Positions 3,521 through 15,178 of a DNA stretch of 32,318 nucleotides are shown one piece after another. The DNA is from Candidatus Kapaibacterium sp. GTDB lineage: Bacteria > Bacteroidota > Ignavibacteria > Kapaibacteriales > UBA4661. Made by a program: the position numbers and the translations under genes. The notes beneath the pieces were generated by a model. That model was not told the origin of the DNA and did not search any database. It saw only the letters and a list, made by a program, of their open reading frames with translations. Each line of letters opens with the position of its first letter. Positions within the stretch are counted from its first letter, which is position 1. The stretch is from positions 1 to 32,318 of the forward strand of contig JANYDO010000282.1 of the NCBI GenBank assembly GCA_025363605.1, written 5' to 3'.

Positions 3521-5635
3521 ATGGCAACTGTAGTTCCACCCCTTGAAAAAGTGCGTAATATCGGTATTTCCGCGCACATTGACTCCGGCAAAACCACCCT
3601 TTCCGAGCGCATCCTGTTCTACACAGGCCGTATTCACGCTATTCACGAAGTACGCGGCAAAGACGGCGTTGGCGCGAAAATGGACTCCATGGACTTGGAA
3701 CGCGAAAAAGGTATTACTATTCAGTCCGCAGCAACGTTCTGCGAATGGGGCGAATACAATATCAACCTCATTGATACTCCCGGACACGTGGACTTTACCG
3801 TCGAAGTAGAACGCGCACTTCGCGTTCTTGACGGTGCGATTCTCGTGTTGTGCTCCGTTTCCGGCGTACAAAGCCAATCTATTACGGTTGACCGTCAAAT
3901 GCGCCGTTACAGCGTACCGCGCCTTGCGTTCATCAACAAAATGGATCGTGCGGGCGCAAATGCTGAAAAAGTTATTTCCCAGCTCCGCGAAAAACTGAAT
4001 CACAACGCCGTTATGATTACGATGCCGATTGGTCGTGAGGCTGACTTTGCAGGTGTTATTGACCTTGTGAGAATGAAAGCAATTTATTATGATGGCGATT
4101 CGGGTGAAAATCTTCGCTACACCGAGATTCCGGCAGAACTTCTTGCTGACGCGAAAGATCGTCGTCACAAACTTATCGAAGCCATTTCTGACTTCGACGA
4201 TGTTATCATGGAGAAATTCTTGGGCGAACAAGAGGATGCTATCACTGAAGAGCAAGTTATGGCAGCTATCCGCAAAGGTACGCTTTCGCTGAAACTCACG
4301 CCTGTTTTTGTTGGTTCTGCATACAAAAACAAAGGTGTTCAAACGCTTCTGGATGCGGTGATAAGCTACCTTCCCAGCCCGCCGGAAACCAGAATCGAAG
4401 CGCTTGACCAAGATAACGGTGAAGCAAAAATCGAAATTAAATCTGATCCGACCAAACCGCTTGTCATGCTTGCCTTCAAATTGGAAGACGGCAAATATGG
4501 TCAGCTGACCTATATGCGTATCTACCAAGGCACGGTGAACAAAGGCGATACGGTTATCAATATGTCGAACGACAAAAAAATTAAAGTTCCTCGTCTTGTG
4601 CGGATGCACTCCAACGAGATGAACGAGATTGATTCGGCAAAAGCGGGCGATATTGTCGCACTCTTCGGCGTGGATTGTGCTTCGGGCGATACTTTCACCG
4701 ATGGCAAACAAAACGTAACGATGTCGTCTATGTTCGTTCCAAACCCGGTTATTGAGCTTGCGGTTGCACCGAAAGACAAAACCGGTCAGGTTAATTTCTC
4801 CAAAGCACTCAACCGCTTCACGAAAGAAGACCCGACTCTGCGTGTGTACCGCGATGAAGAGAGCGGCGAGACCATCATCAAAGGTATGGGCGAGTTGCAC
4901 TTGGAAATTTACATTGAGCGTATCAAGCGTGAGTACAACTGCGAAGTCAACGTCGGTAAGCCGAAAGTGGCATTCCGCGAGGCACTCACGAAAAAAACTG
5001 AGTTCAACTACACACACAAAAAGCAAACCGGCGGTTCAGGTCAATTTGGTCGTGTTGCCGGCTACTTCGAGCCGATGGAAGTTGAAGGCGACAAACTCTA
5101 CGAATTCGTTGACGAAATCGTTGGCGGTGTTATCCCGCGCGAGTACATCCCTGCGTGCGATAAAGGATTTGCCGAACAGTTCAAAAACGGTCAGCTTATC
5201 GGTCAGCCCGTCATGGGCGTTCGCGTGGTCTTGAACGACGGCGCGTATCACGCCGTGGATTCGTCCGAGATGGCGTTCAAAGTTGCTGCTATGACTGCAG
5301 TGCGCGAACACTACAAAGACGCCGCTCCGGTCGTATTGGAGCCTATTATGAACGTTGAAATCTCTGTTCCGGATGAGTTCCAAGGGCAAGTTATCGGTCA
5401 ACTTAGCCAGCGTCGGGCTGTGATTATGGGTACAGATGCTGATAATAACTACGTTATCGTCAATGCCGAAGTACCGCTTTCCGAGATGTTTGGCTATTCC
5501 ACCGACCTTCGTTCTGCCACACAAGGCAAAGGCGAATTCTCAATGGAGTTTGTGAAATACGCTCAAGTACCGAAATCCATTCAAGAAGAAATGACCAAAG
5601 ATTACCAAAAGCGTCGCGCTGAAGGTAACGCGTAA
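3521..5635 (+). CDS. fusA: Elongation factor G, mtEFG1/spdEFG1 type
   Basis: 704-residue translational GTPase that moves tRNA and mRNA through the ribosome after peptide-bond formation. GTPase motifs: P-loop AHIDSGKT (18-25), switch [11 protein letters not shown] (61-70), DTPGH (85-89), NKMD (139-142) and GSA (265-267). Domains II-V follow to the C-terminus. The stretch [15 protein letters not shown] (46-60), and further segments such as the one around LNHNA and EIPAEL, resemble mitochondrial EFG1 (GFM1) and the spirochaete/planctomycete spdEFG1 group more than canonical EF-G. Arg codons are mostly CGT/CGC, as expected for abundant expression. It is monocistronic by appearance, ending in a strong terminator, and lies outside the str operon, which holds a second, different EF-G. 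Inference: this copy is the main translocase. Confidence 0.96.
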
Positions 5636-6955: not shown

Positions 6956-9946
6956 CTAGCGCGAAATAAGGAGTGGCTTGCTGAGGGAAAGAGACGCTCC
7001 GCGTAAGCGTACCCAGTATAAACCGGAACTCAGCGAGTCCAATGCGAATGATGTTTGTTGCCAACCTTTGCTTTGCAAGCGGCTCACAGGTATTGCTACG
7101 ACTTGTCCCAGTGAATTGATGAGTTCTACCGTGACAACTTGGTCGCTGGTGAGTTCATATTCTAAAAAGGCGTTACTACTTGTGGGGTTTGGGTAGAGAC
7201 GAATAGTAGCGCTATCGGCTTGGGTGAGAGTACGGAAGCTGGCGCGAATTTCGTCCAATGAAAGTCCTCCGGCAATAGCAAAACGTACCAAAACAGAGGA
7301 TGTTGGCTGAAGCATCATTCCGCTTGCGCCGACCACGTGGGCAATATCGCCCGATTTACGTGATGAAGATATACCACTCGAAAGACTACGATATTTATCG
7401 CTACGGGGAAAGCCGTTCTCTAAGGTGATGGCATCCTGTGTTGTATCGCCGAGCGTAATTGGATAAAAAGTTGGCTTTTGCGGAGAAAGCAATTTTACAC
7501 CAATAAGAGGGAAATCACCGCCGGAACTTTTTGCAATACCGCATCCGCACTCGCTATCCCAAAAGGTCTCGTTGAGGCTGTAGTTGCCAATATCCCAATC
7601 GAAAAATAGTCCCGCATAGAGGTCAGAGAAGGTGCGGCTAGAGGTGTTGGTAATAATGTAGGAGGAAATAACCATGTTTTGACGCTGGCTCTGACGATAT
7701 TGCTGGAGTGTCTGGTCAACGCTCACGCCTGCTTGATTGCTTGCAGCACGGTCAGCAAAACTGGCGCGTGCAGTGAGAAGTGAAGAATCAGGCGTTGCGC
7801 TAAGGGAGAGCAGGGAGTTGGCAAGAAAGGCTCTGTCGCGTTGTGTTGGAGTGTCACGCACGGAAGATGATATGCTATCTGCTCCACTCGCAATAATTAA
7901 ACCACCTTCGTAGATGAGATTATTGGTATCGCGGGGCTGGTACAACAAGCCGTCACCCTGCATATTAGTGGGGAAATCATTGAAGCCGAAACTGCCACGA
8001 CTATTGACTGTGAGTCTGAGTGCATTACCACGAAGAGTTTGGTAGGATGTATTGACCGAAAGCGTGAGTGCATCTCGCCCGATGAGCTTGCCATTGGCAT
8101 CGGTGATAGAGAAAAGTAGAGGCACAATGAAATCCTGCGAAAGCATCGTGGTGAGACGGAAGCTAAAGTTTACAGCACTCATGCGGGCTTCGTTTATAGC
8201 AAGATTAGGAACTTGTCGAACGGTATCGTCGAAAAACGGATAAAAAGCGCTATTGGTAGCAATTGTTGTTCGCATAGAAATACGCGCTCCGGCGACAGCA
8301 GCAAAGCCGTTCGCAAGATTGAGTTGTACGGTGACGCGTTCACCGGATTCAAGTAGTCCATTATTATTTTCATCTTGCACCGTGTAGCCACGAACTTCGA
8401 TATATGGCAGGTTGACGGTTTGTACGGCAGCCAACATATTCAGTCGTCCTGTGCCAATAAGCCCCACCATATCAGGATTTAGGCGGTCGTTATTATCGGC
8501 TGTAGCTTTTAATTGAGAAAGAATTTGCCGAGGCGAAAGCTGTGGGAAACGCATTTTGACAAGCGCCGCTGCTGCCGATACCATCGGAGCTGCCATAGAT
8601 GTACCGCTTTGAGAGCCATAGCGATTATCTGCGAAAGTAGCATAAATATTTGTTCCGGGAGCGCCAATATCTACCGTTTCGTGATAATTTCCCGCAAGCC
8701 GCGTGTCGTCATCTTCCAGCCATGCCACAGAACACGTGTTGTCATACGAACCCGGATAAAATGCCGTATAGCGACGGTCATTACCAGCAGTCGAAATTAT
8801 CAAGGAGCCGAGTTCGGTAGCGATATTAACTGCGTCCTGTTCTGCCTGTGAACGTGAGATGTCGCCCCAGCTACAGTTGATAATTTTTGCACCCATTACT
8901 GCAGCGTAGATAATACCACGAAAACCGCCCGGTACTAACGTTGAGCCGGGTGGACTACATTTGACGGATAGAAGCCAAATACGCCGTGCTACACCTGCTA
9001 CACCGATGTTGTTATTGGTAACTGCGCCTGCTATTCCGGCAACGTGTGTACCGTGCGTGTTGCCGATGGGCATAGGGTCGTTGTTTTCGTTACCGTCGGC
9101 ATCAGCTGCAAAATTCCAGCCGTGCCAGTCATCTACCCTGCCATTACGGTCGTCGTCAATGCCGTTGGTTCGTTTGTCACGCCCTTGAGCGTCCATACCA
9201 CTTTCGCCCAGATTGACATAAATATTTGCTGCTAAATCTTCATGATTGTAGTCAACACCACTATCAACAATTCCTATAATAACACGTTGCGATGTGTCCG
9301 CTTGTGTCCGTACAACGTCCCATGCTTCAAAAGCACGAATAATGCGTAAATACTGCTGAGAACCGGTAAAGGGGTCGTTCGGTGTATCGGTAAGAGTCCG
9401 ATAGTAAAGCGGTTCGGCGTATTCTACGTCAGATAAATTTTTTAGTTTACTGGCAAGGAAAGCAGCATCGGTTTTGGCACTAAAGCGAATTTTGCACCAG
9501 CGCGTGAGTGTAGATGCGCGTTTGGCGGGATCATCTTCGGTCAGTCGGCTAAAGCGCTCTATAACGCCGTTGATTAAACCATCATCAAAGAGAGCTTCGC
9601 TTGTATGAGCGCTGAGAACAGTTTGCAGGCTCGGTATGGTACCGCGTCTTCCGCTTCTTTCCCATGCAGCGAAGATGGGTGAATTAGCTTTGAATTTGAC
9701 TAGCACTATGCCATTTGAGTAGGACGGATGCTGTGCCTGAGCCTTGGGAGGAATAAAGCAAAAGAGCGTTGTTAAAAAAAGCCCTAGAGTTGCCTTGAGG
9801 AACTTCCAAAGCGATGACTGTAAATACTTGCTTGGAGTTGTATAAAAATTCGTTCTGTGAGCCTGATGGAGTCCTTTAGCAAGGGACGCAGGGAGACAGA
9901 GGTGTTCTGTTATTGATGTCGCTGTGATTTTTGCCATAATCATCAA
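6956..9946 (-). CDS. Subtilisin-like S8 serine protease with T9SS sorting domain
   Basis: 996-residue exported protease. A hydrophobic segment (about 49-65) followed by AQAQ gives a probable signal-peptide cleavage near residue 71, after an unusually long N-region. No internal start shortens it, so the true start is uncertain. The catalytic triad is complete: D228 (GIVDSGVD), H298 (NTHGTHVAG), S450 (SGTSMAAP), with oxyanion N389 (STAGND). A Ca-binding-like DENNNGLLESGE stretch begins the post-catalytic region (about 525-536). The last ~80 residues (from LYPNPTSS to the terminal KPLLISR) form a type A T9SS C-terminal sorting domain, so the protein should cross the outer membrane through T9SS and be surface-anchored or released. 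Its start lies 9 nt after the stop of the TldD-like gene, indicating an operon. Possible roles are nutrient proteolysis or processing of surface proteins. Confidence 0.93.
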   Translation of the reverse strand: MMIMAKITATSITEHLCLPASLAKGLHQAHRTNFYTTPSKYLQSSLWKFLKATLGLFLTTLFCFIPPKAQAQHPSYSNGIVLVKFKANSPIFAAWERSGRRGTIPSLQTVLSAHTSEALFDDGLINGVIERFSRLTEDDPAKRASTLTRWCKIRFSAKTDAAFLASKLKNLSDVEYAEPLYYRTLTDTPNDPFTGSQQYLRIIRAFEAWDVVRTQADTSQRVIIGIVDSGVDYNHEDLAANIYVNLGESGMDAQGRDKRTNGIDDDRNGRVDDWHGWNFAADADGNENNDPMPIGNTHGTHVAGIAGAVTNNNIGVAGVARRIWLLSVKCSPPGSTLVPGGFRGIIYAAVMGAKIINCSWGDISRSQAEQDAVNIATELGSLIISTAGNDRRYTAFYPGSYDNTCSVAWLEDDDTRLAGNYHETVDIGAPGTNIYATFADNRYGSQSGTSMAAPMVSAAAALVKMRFPQLSPRQILSQLKATADNNDRLNPDMVGLIGTGRLNMLAAVQTVNLPYIEVRGYTVQDENNNGLLESGERVTVQLNLANGFAAVAGARISMRTTIATNSAFYPFFDDTVRQVPNLAINEARMSAVNFSFRLTTMLSQDFIVPLLFSITDANGKLIGRDALTLSVNTSYQTLRGNALRLTVNSRGSFGFNDFPTNMQGDGLLYQPRDTNNLIYEGGLIIASGADSISSSVRDTPTQRDRAFLANSLLSLSATPDSSLLTARASFADRAASNQAGVSVDQTLQQYRQSQRQNMVISSYIITNTSSRTFSDLYAGLFFDWDIGNYSLNETFWDSECGCGIAKSSGGDFPLIGVKLLSPQKPTFYPITLGDTTQDAITLENGFPRSDKYRSLSSGISSSRKSGDIAHVVGASGMMLQPTSSVLVRFAIAGGLSLDEIRASFRTLTQADSATIRLYPNPTSSNAFLEYELTSDQVVTVELINSLGQVVAIPVSRLQSKGWQQTSFALDSLSSGLYWVRLRGASLSLSKPLLISR

Positions 9947-9955
9947 GGAGAAATG

Positions 9956-11743
9956 TTACTTGCGAGAAAAGAACGGATGTGGCAGAATAGGCGGCTTTGT
10001 GAAATCATCTTCGATAGGGCGAATTTCAATATCTTCAAAAAGGAGCGCCGGCAAAATCACCGAAGCAGGCAGAAATTGTGCTCCTCCGGAGAAAAATGCT
10101 GCGGTAACGGGTAGTGCATAGCAGTTATAGGCGGTCTTGCGGTCGCCTACAGCAAGAACCTCTTTGAAGGATTGTACTGTCATGCCCGCAACGTCGCACC
10201 CGCGCACAAGCTCTTCCCGCCCGTTAGGGTAAATGCGATAGGCTTCGATTGCGGTCATTTGTCCGGGTGTGCGGGCGAAAGGAAAGTCACCTTCGGTAAG
10301 ATTGTAGAGTGTGGTCATTAAAATATTAGGATTCAAAATTTTCCGTACAACAATTCCGTATGGCAAGTCACGATCTTTGCAAAGCTGGAGCATCCTCGCG
10401 CGTAGTTTCGTGTAGGATTGTGTGCGGTCTTTGCTGGCAGAAACGTCTAAAACGCTGAACATGGCAGCCCCGCCACGGTTGTGACCATTAGAAGTCTTGA
10501 TGCGGCGTGTGGGAGTACGCGAAGACATGAGACCTTTCAAATAGCCGCCTTTGATGATTTGAAAAGATTCCGCCGGAATCGCCTCGTCGTCAATGCGGTA
10601 TGCTCCCACAAGCTGTGTCGTACCAAAGACTGCTTGAGATGGCGTAACGGCTACGGACAGAAACTCCGGCATTACCCGTGCTCCCACCTTATTTTGAAAC
10701 GTTGCATTTTGCGGATTATCGCTGATACCACGCTCGGTAACTGGTGGGCGCTGCGTGGCAAGGTTTGGTGCAAATATCTGTAAGAATACTTCTGCGGCGG
10801 CTTGATCTTCAAAGAGAACCGGACCTGAATATGCTTGAGCAACAGGTGCTGTAAGACTTTGTGAGAGCTTTTGTGCTAACGCACGAGTAGCTTTAAGCAA
10901 AGAATCGCGGTTCGGCAAACCGCTTGGAGTACGACTATAAGAGCTATACACCTGTGCAAGTGGCATCCCGTCTTTTGCCTGAGCCGTAGCGACGATTTCT
11001 ACGCCAACAATAAGATCGGTTCGCACATACTCGCGACCTTCCGTGTTGATAAACAATTCTTGTTTGGTATTGAACTCAATTGCAACGGTAGAGAGCGTAA
11101 CGGCGGGAAAATCCCGAAAAACCGCCGAAAGATCGACGGCAAGGTGTTCAAAATAGACTTTATCAAACGTGGGTATAGGAATGGTATCTACATTAGAAGT
11201 TGAAGAGTAGAGGGTAAAATCGGGTAGGGTATCAACTCGTACTCGATTTTTTAATGCCGCTTGCTTTTTGGCATACAGTTCGGCTGACTGCTTGTATGCA
11301 GCATCGGTTGCGAGCCAAAGTTCGCGGCGCAGGGCTGAGTAATCCAGCTCAGTAGGAATAGAGCGGCTTTTGAAGCGTTCTTCGTCATCGCTTGAGCCAA
11401 AAAACCCGAGTGCGGGGTCAAAAAAATTGGTGTTGTCAAATTGAGCAGAACCCACGCGTAAGCCAACCGCGAGACGGTTATCTTGTGCCAAGTGAGATTC
11501 TGTCAGGCTGCCAAATGAGGCTTTGATATTATTGGAAGAATTATGCGTAAGCGAATACTGAATGTAATACGGCTTTTCCAATGAAGGAAGCTGCAACTCA
11601 TTCATAGAGCGCTTGATTTCATCACGCATAGCACGGAAAATCTCTTGTGTCGGTGCTGGGTTTGGCTGTGATTGAGCAAAGATAGAAAAAGAGTAACAAA
11701 GAATGATGCCGGCGAGCAGATGTATCCTGAGCATGGTGTTCAC
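9956..11743 (-). CDS. Exported TldD/PmbA-like protein without the zinc motif
   Basis: 595 residues starting with a clear signal peptide (hydrophobic 8-22, likely cleavage after IFA at 23). Family features of TldD/TldE (PmbA): GPVLFEDQAAAEVF (307-320), GAYRIDDEAIPAE (380-392), SNGHNRGG (418-425) and a C-terminal end of the form PASVILPALLFEDIEI (559-574). The HExxxH zinc-binding helix that makes TldD a metallopeptidase is absent; the corresponding region reads RPPVTERGIS (332-341). It therefore resembles the non-catalytic TldE/PmbA partner or an inactive homolog. TldD/E of E. coli is cytoplasmic and processes microcin B17 and CcdA; an exported version must act elsewhere. It is first in an operon with the T9SS subtilase, which suggests a shared envelope function. 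Function is not established. Confidence 0.8.
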   Translation of the reverse strand: MNTMLRIHLLAGIILCYSFSIFAQSQPNPAPTQEIFRAMRDEIKRSMNELQLPSLEKPYYIQYSLTHNSSNNIKASFGSLTESHLAQDNRLAVGLRVGSAQFDNTNFFDPALGFFGSSDDEERFKSRSIPTELDYSALRRELWLATDAAYKQSAELYAKKQAALKNRVRVDTLPDFTLYSSTSNVDTIPIPTFDKVYFEHLAVDLSAVFRDFPAVTLSTVAIEFNTKQELFINTEGREYVRTDLIVGVEIVATAQAKDGMPLAQVYSSYSRTPSGLPNRDSLLKATRALAQKLSQSLTAPVAQAYSGPVLFEDQAAAEVFLQIFAPNLATQRPPVTERGISDNPQNATFQNKVGARVMPEFLSVAVTPSQAVFGTTQLVGAYRIDDEAIPAESFQIIKGGYLKGLMSSRTPTRRIKTSNGHNRGGAAMFSVLDVSASKDRTQSYTKLRARMLQLCKDRDLPYGIVVRKILNPNILMTTLYNLTEGDFPFARTPGQMTAIEAYRIYPNGREELVRGCDVAGMTVQSFKEVLAVGDRKTAYNCYALPVTAAFFSGGAQFLPASVILPALLFEDIEIRPIEDDFTKPPILPHPFFSRK

Positions 11744-13120: not shown

Positions 13121-15178
13121 ATGCCACGTGTAACACCGATAGAAAAGGTACGAAACATTGGCATTATGGCTCATATTGATGCGGGAAAAACGACAACCAG
13201 TGAGCGAATCTTGTTTTATGCAGGAGCTGTTCACAAGATGGGTGAGGTTCATTACGGCACGGCTGTGATGGATTTTATGGAGCAAGAGCGTGAGCGTGGA
13301 ATTACGATTAGCTCTGCTGCGACCCATTTTCAGTGGCGTGATTGTCAGTTTAATCTCATTGATACTCCTGGTCATGTAGATTTCACCGTCGAGGTGCAGC
13401 GCTCGCTGCGCGTTCTCGATGGCGCTGTCGCGCTCTACTGCGCAGTCAGCGGTGTCGAGCCGCAGTCGGAAACTGTTTGGCGGCAAGCTGAACAGTATCA
13501 TGTTCCTCGAATAGCGTTCGTTAATAAGATGGATCGTATTGGAGCAGACTTTTTTCGAGTGGTTCAGATGATGAAAGAAAAGCTCAGTGCTAATCCGGTT
13601 GTTCTACAGCTTCCAATAGGTTCTGGTGAAGATTTTACTGGTGTTGTAGATCTCCTTCAAATGAAAGCTCACGTTTATGACGATGACTCGCTTGGCTTGA
13701 AGTTTTCTACAGAAAATATACCAGAGGGTATGATTGCTCAAGCGGAAGAGTATCGCTCAATGCTTGTAGAATCTGCTGCGGAAATAGATGATGAGTTGCT
13801 TGCAAAATATCTTGAGCACGGTACGCTTGATAATGTAGAAATTTTGACCGCACTTCGCAAAGGAACAATTCAAACACAGATTACTCCAGTTCTTTGTGGT
13901 GCCTCTTTCAAGAATAAAGGTGTTCAGCAATTGTTGGATGCCGTCATAGAGTACTTGCCGTCCCCACTAGATATAGGCGGCGTAAAAGGGTATACGCTTG
14001 ATACGCACGAGGAGTTGTATCGCAACTTTCAAGATGATGAGTCGCTTGCGGCTCTTGTTTTCAAAGTTGTTACAGACCAATTTGTTGGTCGCTTGACATT
14101 CATGCGTGTTTATTCCGGTACGTTAAAAGTAGGTGCTTATTTGTTAAACGCCGCAACCGGAAAAAAAGAGCGCATCGGGCGTTTGCTGCGAATGAAAGCA
14201 AATCAGCGCGAGGATGTTGAGGAAGAGTATGCCGGTTCAATCGTCGCAGTCGTTGGATTAAAAGGCGCACGAACAGGAGATACTATTTGTGATGCAGCCC
14301 ATCCAATCCTCCTCGAAAAAATAGAGTTTGCTGAGCCGGTTATTAATCAAGCCGTTGAGCCGAAAACTCTAGCCGACCAAGAAAAACTTACTGACGCATT
14401 ACAAAAACTAACAGACGAAGACCCGACATTTCGCTTCAAAACCGATGAAGAAACAGGGCAAGTGCTCATCAGCGGTGTTGGTGAGTTACAGCTTGAGATT
14501 ATGGTAGATAGGCTAAAGCGTGAATTCGGAGTTGGTGTCAATATTGGTAAGCCCCAAGTAGCGTATCGCGAGACTATAGTCTCTGCGGTTCGCCAAGAAG
14601 AAATACTTGATCGGAGTGCTGCTGGAAAACAGCAGTTTGCACGTGTTGTCCTGAGTGTCGCGCCAAACAATCTTGGCAAAGGCATTGTCTTTGAAAACAA
14701 AGTGGATATATCAGTTTTGCCCAAAAACTTCGTTAATGCTGTAGAGCAAGGAGTTCGACAAGGCTTGCAAAATGGTCCAATAATGAGCTATCCCATCGTT
14801 GATGTTAAGGTTGAACTCGTTGATGCGTCCTTTAGTCAAGCAGATTCTACCGAAGTTACATTTACAATTGTAGCGTCTAATGCCGTCAGAGAGGCGGTTC
14901 GCAACGCTTCGCCGGTTCTGCTAGAGCCAACATTTGAAGTTGAAGTGGTTACGCCGGATAAAAATATGGGCGATGTTGTTGGAGACTTAAGTTCTAGGCG
15001 AGGTAAAATAGAAGGTATTTCGCAGCAAAGCATGGATTTGCAGCTTGTTAAAGCCTTTGTACCACTTTCAGAAATGTTTGGTTATGTGACAAAGCTGCGT
15101 TCCATTACGCAGGGACGAGCATCATACACAATGAAGTTTGCTCATTATGAGCCGGCGGTAAACGCGCCAACATACTAG
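13121..15178 (+). CDS. fusA: Second elongation factor G, EFG2-like (mtEFG2/spdEFG2 type)
   Basis: 685-residue five-domain GTPase in the canonical str-operon position between rpsG and tuf. Motifs: AHIDAGKT (17-24), [17 protein letters not shown] (51-67), DTPGH (81-85), NKMD (135-138). The N-terminal motifs [30 protein letters not shown] and [21 protein letters not shown] align better with mitochondrial EFG2 (GFM2) than with the other copy. Members of that group (mtEFG2, spdEFG2) work with RRF in ribosome recycling and lack strong translocase activity. Arg CGA and Ile ATA codons are commoner here than in the fusA at 3521 or in tuf, hinting at lower expression. Assignment to EFG2 is by eye; a divergent EF-G II is the alternative. 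Confidence 0.93.

Follow-up and report, generated by a model that had tools for sequence, protein, structure and literature searches.

A zinc-less TldE-like protein of Candidatus Kapaibacterium as the likely dead subunit of an exported TldD/TldE-type peptidase

RESULTS

A TldE-like gene precedes a T9SS subtilase gene

The DNA analyzed here (the window) is a stretch of 32,318 nucleotides from Candidatus Kapaibacterium sp. (assembly GCA_025363605.1, contig JANYDO010000282.1). On its minus strand, a gene for a TldE-like protein is followed, after a 9-nt gap (9947 to 9955), by a gene for a subtilase; the coordinates in the initial annotation were correct. The features are as follows.

9956..11743, minus strand: putatively exported TldE-like (zinc-less) subunit with a full predicted TldD/PmbA fold, 595 aa
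11675..11743, minus strand: signal-peptide-like leader, residues 1-23, with a probable signal peptidase I site between IFA and Q (read from the sequence and from a hydrophobic-leader measure over family members)
10022..10822, minus strand: PmbA/TldD C-terminal domain PF19289, residues 308-574 (Pfam match)
10766..10783, minus strand: degenerate metal site LQIFAP, residues 321-326, aligned with HEIFGH of the partner (alignments and column counts)
6956..9946, minus strand: T9SS subtilase, 996 aa, co-directional with the TldE-like gene
8486..9289, minus strand: Peptidase S8 domain of the subtilase, residues 220-487 (Pfam)
6983..7198, minus strand: T9SS C-terminal sorting domain of the subtilase, residues 917-988 (profile match)

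The TldE-like ORF starts at a GTG or at an ATG 9 nt later. The 9-nt gap is only approximate, because translation of the subtilase could begin at a TTG or at one of the ATG codons that closely follow it. Also in the window are two genes encoding elongation factor G domains, at 3521-5635 and 13121-15178, the second in an rpsL cluster.

The subtilase had been described as a surface protease with an intact triad and a T9SS sorting domain, and its sequence agrees. The translation contains the triad motifs VDSGVD (Asp), HGTHVAG (His), and GTSMAAP (Ser) and matches PF00082 (E = 2.9e-43) and Por_Secre_tail (E = 3.1e-9). The genome holds 149 sorting-domain matches and a SprA-like frame of 2556 aa. Both marks of T9SS cargo are therefore present: a sorting domain at the C-terminus and, in the genome, a T9SS.

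The window protein has a TldD/PmbA fold without the metal site

The TldE-like protein matched PF19289 with an E-value of 2.3e-12 (47 bits; cut-off, 22 bits), and no N-terminal or central Pfam domain was matched at E = 1e-3, although the predicted fold covers both regions. A PDB sequence search with the single protein as query returned chance matches only, whereas profile searches reached TldD/PmbA. We then modeled the protein with AlphaFold from an alignment of 50 family members (pLDDT 92.2, pTM 0.89). All 16 Foldseek matches at E-values up to 0.001 were TldD, TldE, or PmbA structures. VIA-align superimposed the model on Escherichia coli TldD (5nj5_A) with a Z-score of 30.8 and an rmsd of 4.0 over 441 residues, and on TldE chains with Z-scores of about 25. 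The TldD/PmbA fold spans model residues 28-578, including the N-terminal half that has no Pfam match. The kinship to TldD/PmbA claimed in the initial annotation is thus supported by domain match and predicted fold alike; a prediction without this fold was one of the two outcomes that it had named as refuting, and it did not occur.

The HExxxH motif and Cys ligands of canonical TldD are absent from the window protein, which has LQIFAP at the motif and Ala at the Cys column, in agreement with its earlier description as zinc-less. The signal peptide described earlier also has a counterpart in the sequence, a putative leader that reads MNTMLRIHLLAGIILCYSFSIFA and is followed by Q.

The conserved partner is a putatively exported paralogue with HExxxH

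No TldD partner is encoded within the window, as had been noted, but a partner is encoded elsewhere in the same genome. A search for a second exported TldD homologue with HExxxH identified G000:C72:19647-21260, which has a leader, HEIFGH, and Cys529. This protein matched the central domain PF19290 at 1.5e-4 and PF19289 above the cut-off. PF19289 found only these two proteins in the genome and no third. We refer to proteins of the C72 type as active (exported D) and to those of the window type as dead (exported E).

Across the order, active and dead genes are both present in 58 of 61 genomes (own included). The exceptions are G003 and G055, with the dead gene only, and G043, with the active gene only, at a contig end. 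The active gene comes first and adjoins the dead gene in 38 of the 58 genomes holding both. In the other 20 the pair is unlinked, part of these being contig fragments or ends; the two genes are separated in the genus of the window, in a second genus of the same family, and across most of family f9, among others. A canonical TldD/TldE pair is additionally present in only three of the 61 genomes (G020, G034, and G039). The active gene in the order is often preceded by panD and by nucleotidyltransferase, glyoxalase, and phosphoglycerate-mutase-like genes.

Identity matrices of active and dead proteins were correlated (0.818 over 21 pairs, with none of 2000 permutations as high), as would also be expected from shared ancestry alone. 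In one genome (G060), a further and more divergent exported D-E pair occurs (L073, G060:C26), whose E protein is only 28% identical to the window protein. In some Kapabacteria-type loci (L087 8047-8610, likewise L139, L147, and L158), a small membrane-like protein is encoded between the active and dead genes; the L087-type protein weakly resembles DUF6141 (25.2 bits, cut-off 27).

Residues were counted in distinct proteins no shorter than 450 aa. HExxxH was found in all 104 active proteins, in none of the 96 dead proteins, and in all six single-chain fusions of the two. In a 59-row alignment, all 22 exported D rows and all 9 canonical TldD rows conserve the His, Glu, His, and Cys columns. The 22 exported E rows have mostly Ala, Pro, and Gln at both His positions and at the Glu position; individual rows retain one His or the Glu, and none retains the set. 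Exported E shares residues typical of TldD that canonical TldE is without, such as Arg at column 401 (21 of 22 rows).

Both subunits carry hydrophobic leaders

A hydrophobic leader reaching the set strength lies ahead of the core in all 104 active and all 96 dead proteins, compared with 1 of 15 canonical TldD/TldE; the measure is crude rather than a trained predictor, and a looser version passes 474 of 1108 other ORFs. Positive charge before the stretch and no acidic residue within it were found in 98 of the 104 active and 91 of the 96 dead proteins. A leader site of the form [AVSTGIL]x[AGS], with Q after the putative cleavage point, is conserved in 15 of 24 D rows and 12 of 25 E rows. From these sequence features, we infer that both TldD-like subunits are exported via Sec to the periplasm.

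Separately, several canonical TldD proteins have twin-arginine-like N-termini (RRDFLK and similar), at L206 755-2281, L207 2785-4317, L209 825-2351, L210 1432-2973, L211 1728-3278, and L214 1079-2629. The canonical TldE beside them (seen in L206, L207, L209, and L211) is without such an N-terminus, and in L206-type loci the canonical pair is possibly co-exported through Tat.

The pair occurs in several phyla and is fused in some loci

We sampled 296 genomes of the phylum (own included), 25 of them from the order. Among the 271 genomes outside the order, five match the active protein strongly (E up to 1e-50); in four of them the match is intact and the dead gene adjoins it, and in the fifth (G179) the match is in pieces. 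A scan of 84,980 species genomes then matched at least 591 stretches, 584 of them relatives, and we analyzed the best 80. These best 80 of at least 584 relatives are titled Kapaibacterium, Ignavibacteria, Bacteroidetes, Acidobacteria, Gemmatimonadetes, Planctomycetota, Gammaproteobacteria, Zixibacteria, Aminicenantes, and Verrucomicrobia.

Among the same best 80, the dead gene lies downstream on the same strand in 68 loci, three of which have one gene between and one of which has a gap with a small ORF. Active and dead parts share one ORF in five. The remaining seven have no linked dead gene: L124, L125, L135, and L143 are unlinked relatives, the contig ends right behind L185 and L193, and L183 has no dead gene within 8 kb downstream. 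Clustering of neighbors across phyla revealed no shared neighbor or functional partner of the pair and no recurring subtilase cluster. At L184 (9464-13081), a 468-aa ORF on the opposite strand, possibly a mobile element, seemingly splits the dead gene.

In the five fusions (L134, L188, L192, L197, and L199), whose titles fall in at least three groups, the active part comes first and the dead part second; L085 is a further fusion, like L134. The fusions have a single leader, at the N-terminus, and the joint lacks one; L199 begins at a contig edge, where its own leader cannot be judged. Alignments mixing fusions with single D and E rows (A4 and A6) placed rows on the wrong half, and we therefore folded the L134 fusion alone from an alignment of fusions and E rows only (A5), in which 5 rows cover the D half and 25 cover the E half. 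The model (1105 residues, pLDDT 86.5, pTM 0.84) suggests two halves with a defined placement, and TldD chains ranked first among its Foldseek matches.

The exported pair is separate from canonical TldD/TldE

In an unrooted tree of 59 proteins, exported D and exported E join each other (100/100), apart from canonical TldD and TldE. Support is 100/99 for exported E, 100/100 for canonical TldE, and only 64/28 for canonical TldD. For exported D it is moderate, at 94/82, and 80/77 in a reduced tree that drops 17 long or doubtful rows. Forcing a shared split (D with TldD, E with TldE) cost 71 log-likelihood units (p-AU 4e-5) and, in the reduced tree, 49 units (p = 0.006). The window protein is therefore not a canonical TldE: it has a leader, and the grouping of exported E with TldE is rejected in both trees. 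The idea that the pair arose by export of canonical TldD/TldE was likewise discarded, since the tree separates them, despite the few canonical TldD with twin-arginine-like N-termini.

The unrooted topology requires two losses of the metal site wherever the root lies. Since the exported proteins form their own clade and the shared split is rejected, the design of one active plus one dead subunit probably evolved twice, as judged from these sequences. Ghilarov et al. assumed one loss of the catalytic center for E. coli TldE (sections of PMC5810440).

The subtilase is a neighbor in part of the order

The initial annotation had paired the TldE-like protein with the subtilase and had asked whether their adjacency extends beyond this genome, which it does. 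The best match to the window subtilase lies directly behind the dead gene in six of eight genomes of the genus (G000, G001, G002, G003, G006, and G007). Four genomes of two other families add to these: the best match again directly follows the dead gene in G016 and G031 (family f8), it lies about 0.65 kb further behind in G018 (f10), and the three best matches stand in tandem beside a 3' fragment of the dead gene in G024 (f8). The gap in same-genus genomes ranges from 6 to 94 nt, with one overlap that depends on the start chosen. In total, the subtilase is behind the dead gene in 10 of the 26 genomes examined, in three families. In the other 16 the best match is elsewhere, for instance on the opposite strand at a distance of about 2.6 kb in G005 and 16 kb away on the same contig in G004. 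The adjacency is therefore ancient and genuine within a part of the order and missing elsewhere in it, and we regard the subtilase as a lineage-level neighbor, not a core partner.

It could still be argued that the TldE-like protein binds or chaperones substrates of the adjoining T9SS subtilase, or matures it, as a two-gene envelope maturation unit. The neighbors are co-directional in those six genus members and four further genomes, the adjacent subtilase being the genome's best match, and neighboring subtilases in relatives also bear sorting domains, one of them below the cut-off. However, the adjacency is absent in 16 of 26 genomes, and loci of other phyla show the D-E pair without a recurring subtilase cluster. 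Moreover, Pfam finds no sorting domain in the TldD-like proteins, so the subtilase, which would be expected to pass beyond the periplasm, and the pair are expected in different final compartments. We give such a unit an outside chance. The protein conserved alongside the TldE-like protein is instead the exported HExxxH paralogue, with which it is paired or fused in 68 and 5, respectively, of the best 80 of at least 584 relatives, and this speaks against the earlier suggestion of a chaperone or substrate binder for the subtilase. The reading of a lone TldE partnered by the subtilase was rejected in view of the C72 partner, the co-occurrence in 58 of 61 genomes, and subtilase adjacency in only 10 of 26.

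DISCUSSION

A candidate chambered peptidase of the periplasm

We consider it likely that the window gene encodes the dead subunit, and C72 the active subunit, of an exported, independently evolved heterodimeric chambered metallopeptidase of the TldD/TldE type. The exported pair would have arisen through its own duplication and metal-site loss, separately from cytoplasmic TldD/TldE. The ancestral operon would have been the active gene followed by the dead gene; its breakup in this lineage would explain why the active gene is now on another contig. After Sec export, both subunits would fold in the periplasm and together enclose a hollow chamber, with the metal held on its inner wall by the active subunit and the other half of the shell formed by the dead one. 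E. coli TldD/E is active only as a heterodimer, with the metal on TldD, and is a closed shell that only unfolded peptides enter (sections of PMC5810440). By analogy with this behavior and from the conserved residues, the pair is most likely an extracytoplasmic chambered peptidase that admits and trims only unfolded peptides.

Its substrate is most likely general: peptide leftovers of the envelope, such as secretion leftovers and fragments of misfolded proteins, or peptides imported from the surroundings. The T9SS surface subtilase encoded behind the dead gene in this genus and in two further families may feed peptides to the pair; a link of this kind, for example trimming of the peptides that the subtilase releases, is possible. 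A broader statement, to which we give only slightly better than even credence, is that the pair represents an as yet undescribed chambered metallopeptidase acting outside the cytoplasm, widespread in diderms of several phyla, with a TldD fold, an active and a dead subunit, and a second origin from a catalytic ancestor, which is the only TldD/E system in most of the order and is partly coupled to peptide-feeding T9SS subtilases.

The pair might alternatively act in a dedicated pathway, for example by cutting the leader off an exported peptide product, much as TldD/E does with microcin B17; TldD/E has known functions in peptide natural products (sections of PMC5810440). No neighbor is common across phyla, however, and in the order the active gene often sits in a housekeeping setting. 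Both points favor general peptide turnover, and we see a dedicated pathway as a slim prospect. That the dead protein dispenses with the active subunit, working as a homodimer or scaffold, is very improbable: the genes are split in this genus and PmbA/TldE homodimers crystallize, but cytoplasmic homodimers are inactive (sections of PMC5810440), and co-occurrence is near universal, with linkage and repeated fusion.

TldD/E has so far been a cytoplasmic protease whose dead subunit was thought to stem from one lost catalytic center. If the independent step and the repeated fusion hold true, the active-plus-dead design would be a favored solution for a closed peptidase chamber, and two independent cases would allow a comparative test of it. 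The pair would also add a candidate peptide-clearing enzyme to the periplasm, a compartment with few chambered proteases, and it corrects the misleading reading of a "lone" exported TldE.

Comparison with known systems

A search of titles and abstract openings, with subscription papers and reviews mostly outside its reach, found no exported TldD/E pair. The T9SS subtilase (S8 with Por_Secre_tail) is ordinary; its one unusual trait is where it sits, behind the TldE-like gene. Both the window protein and its partner score above the cut-off of PF19289, a model blind to exported versus cytoplasmic and to active versus dead proteins, and the sole NCBIfam match is far under its cut-off (25 of 635 bits). 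The closest known system is the cytoplasmic TldD/TldE (PmbA) of E. coli (PDB 5NJ5), which the exported pair resembles in fold, as the Z-scores indicate, and in having two paralogous subunits, one with HExxxH and a remote Cys and the other without. The exported proteins are longer (550-620 aa, compared with 450-480 aa for canonical TldD/TldE) and have leaders on both subunits. Their genes are adjacent or fused into a single chain in most genomes seen, whereas E. coli tldD and tldE are distant from each other. Unlike canonical TldD/TldE, the exported pair forms a separate clade with its own D/E split.
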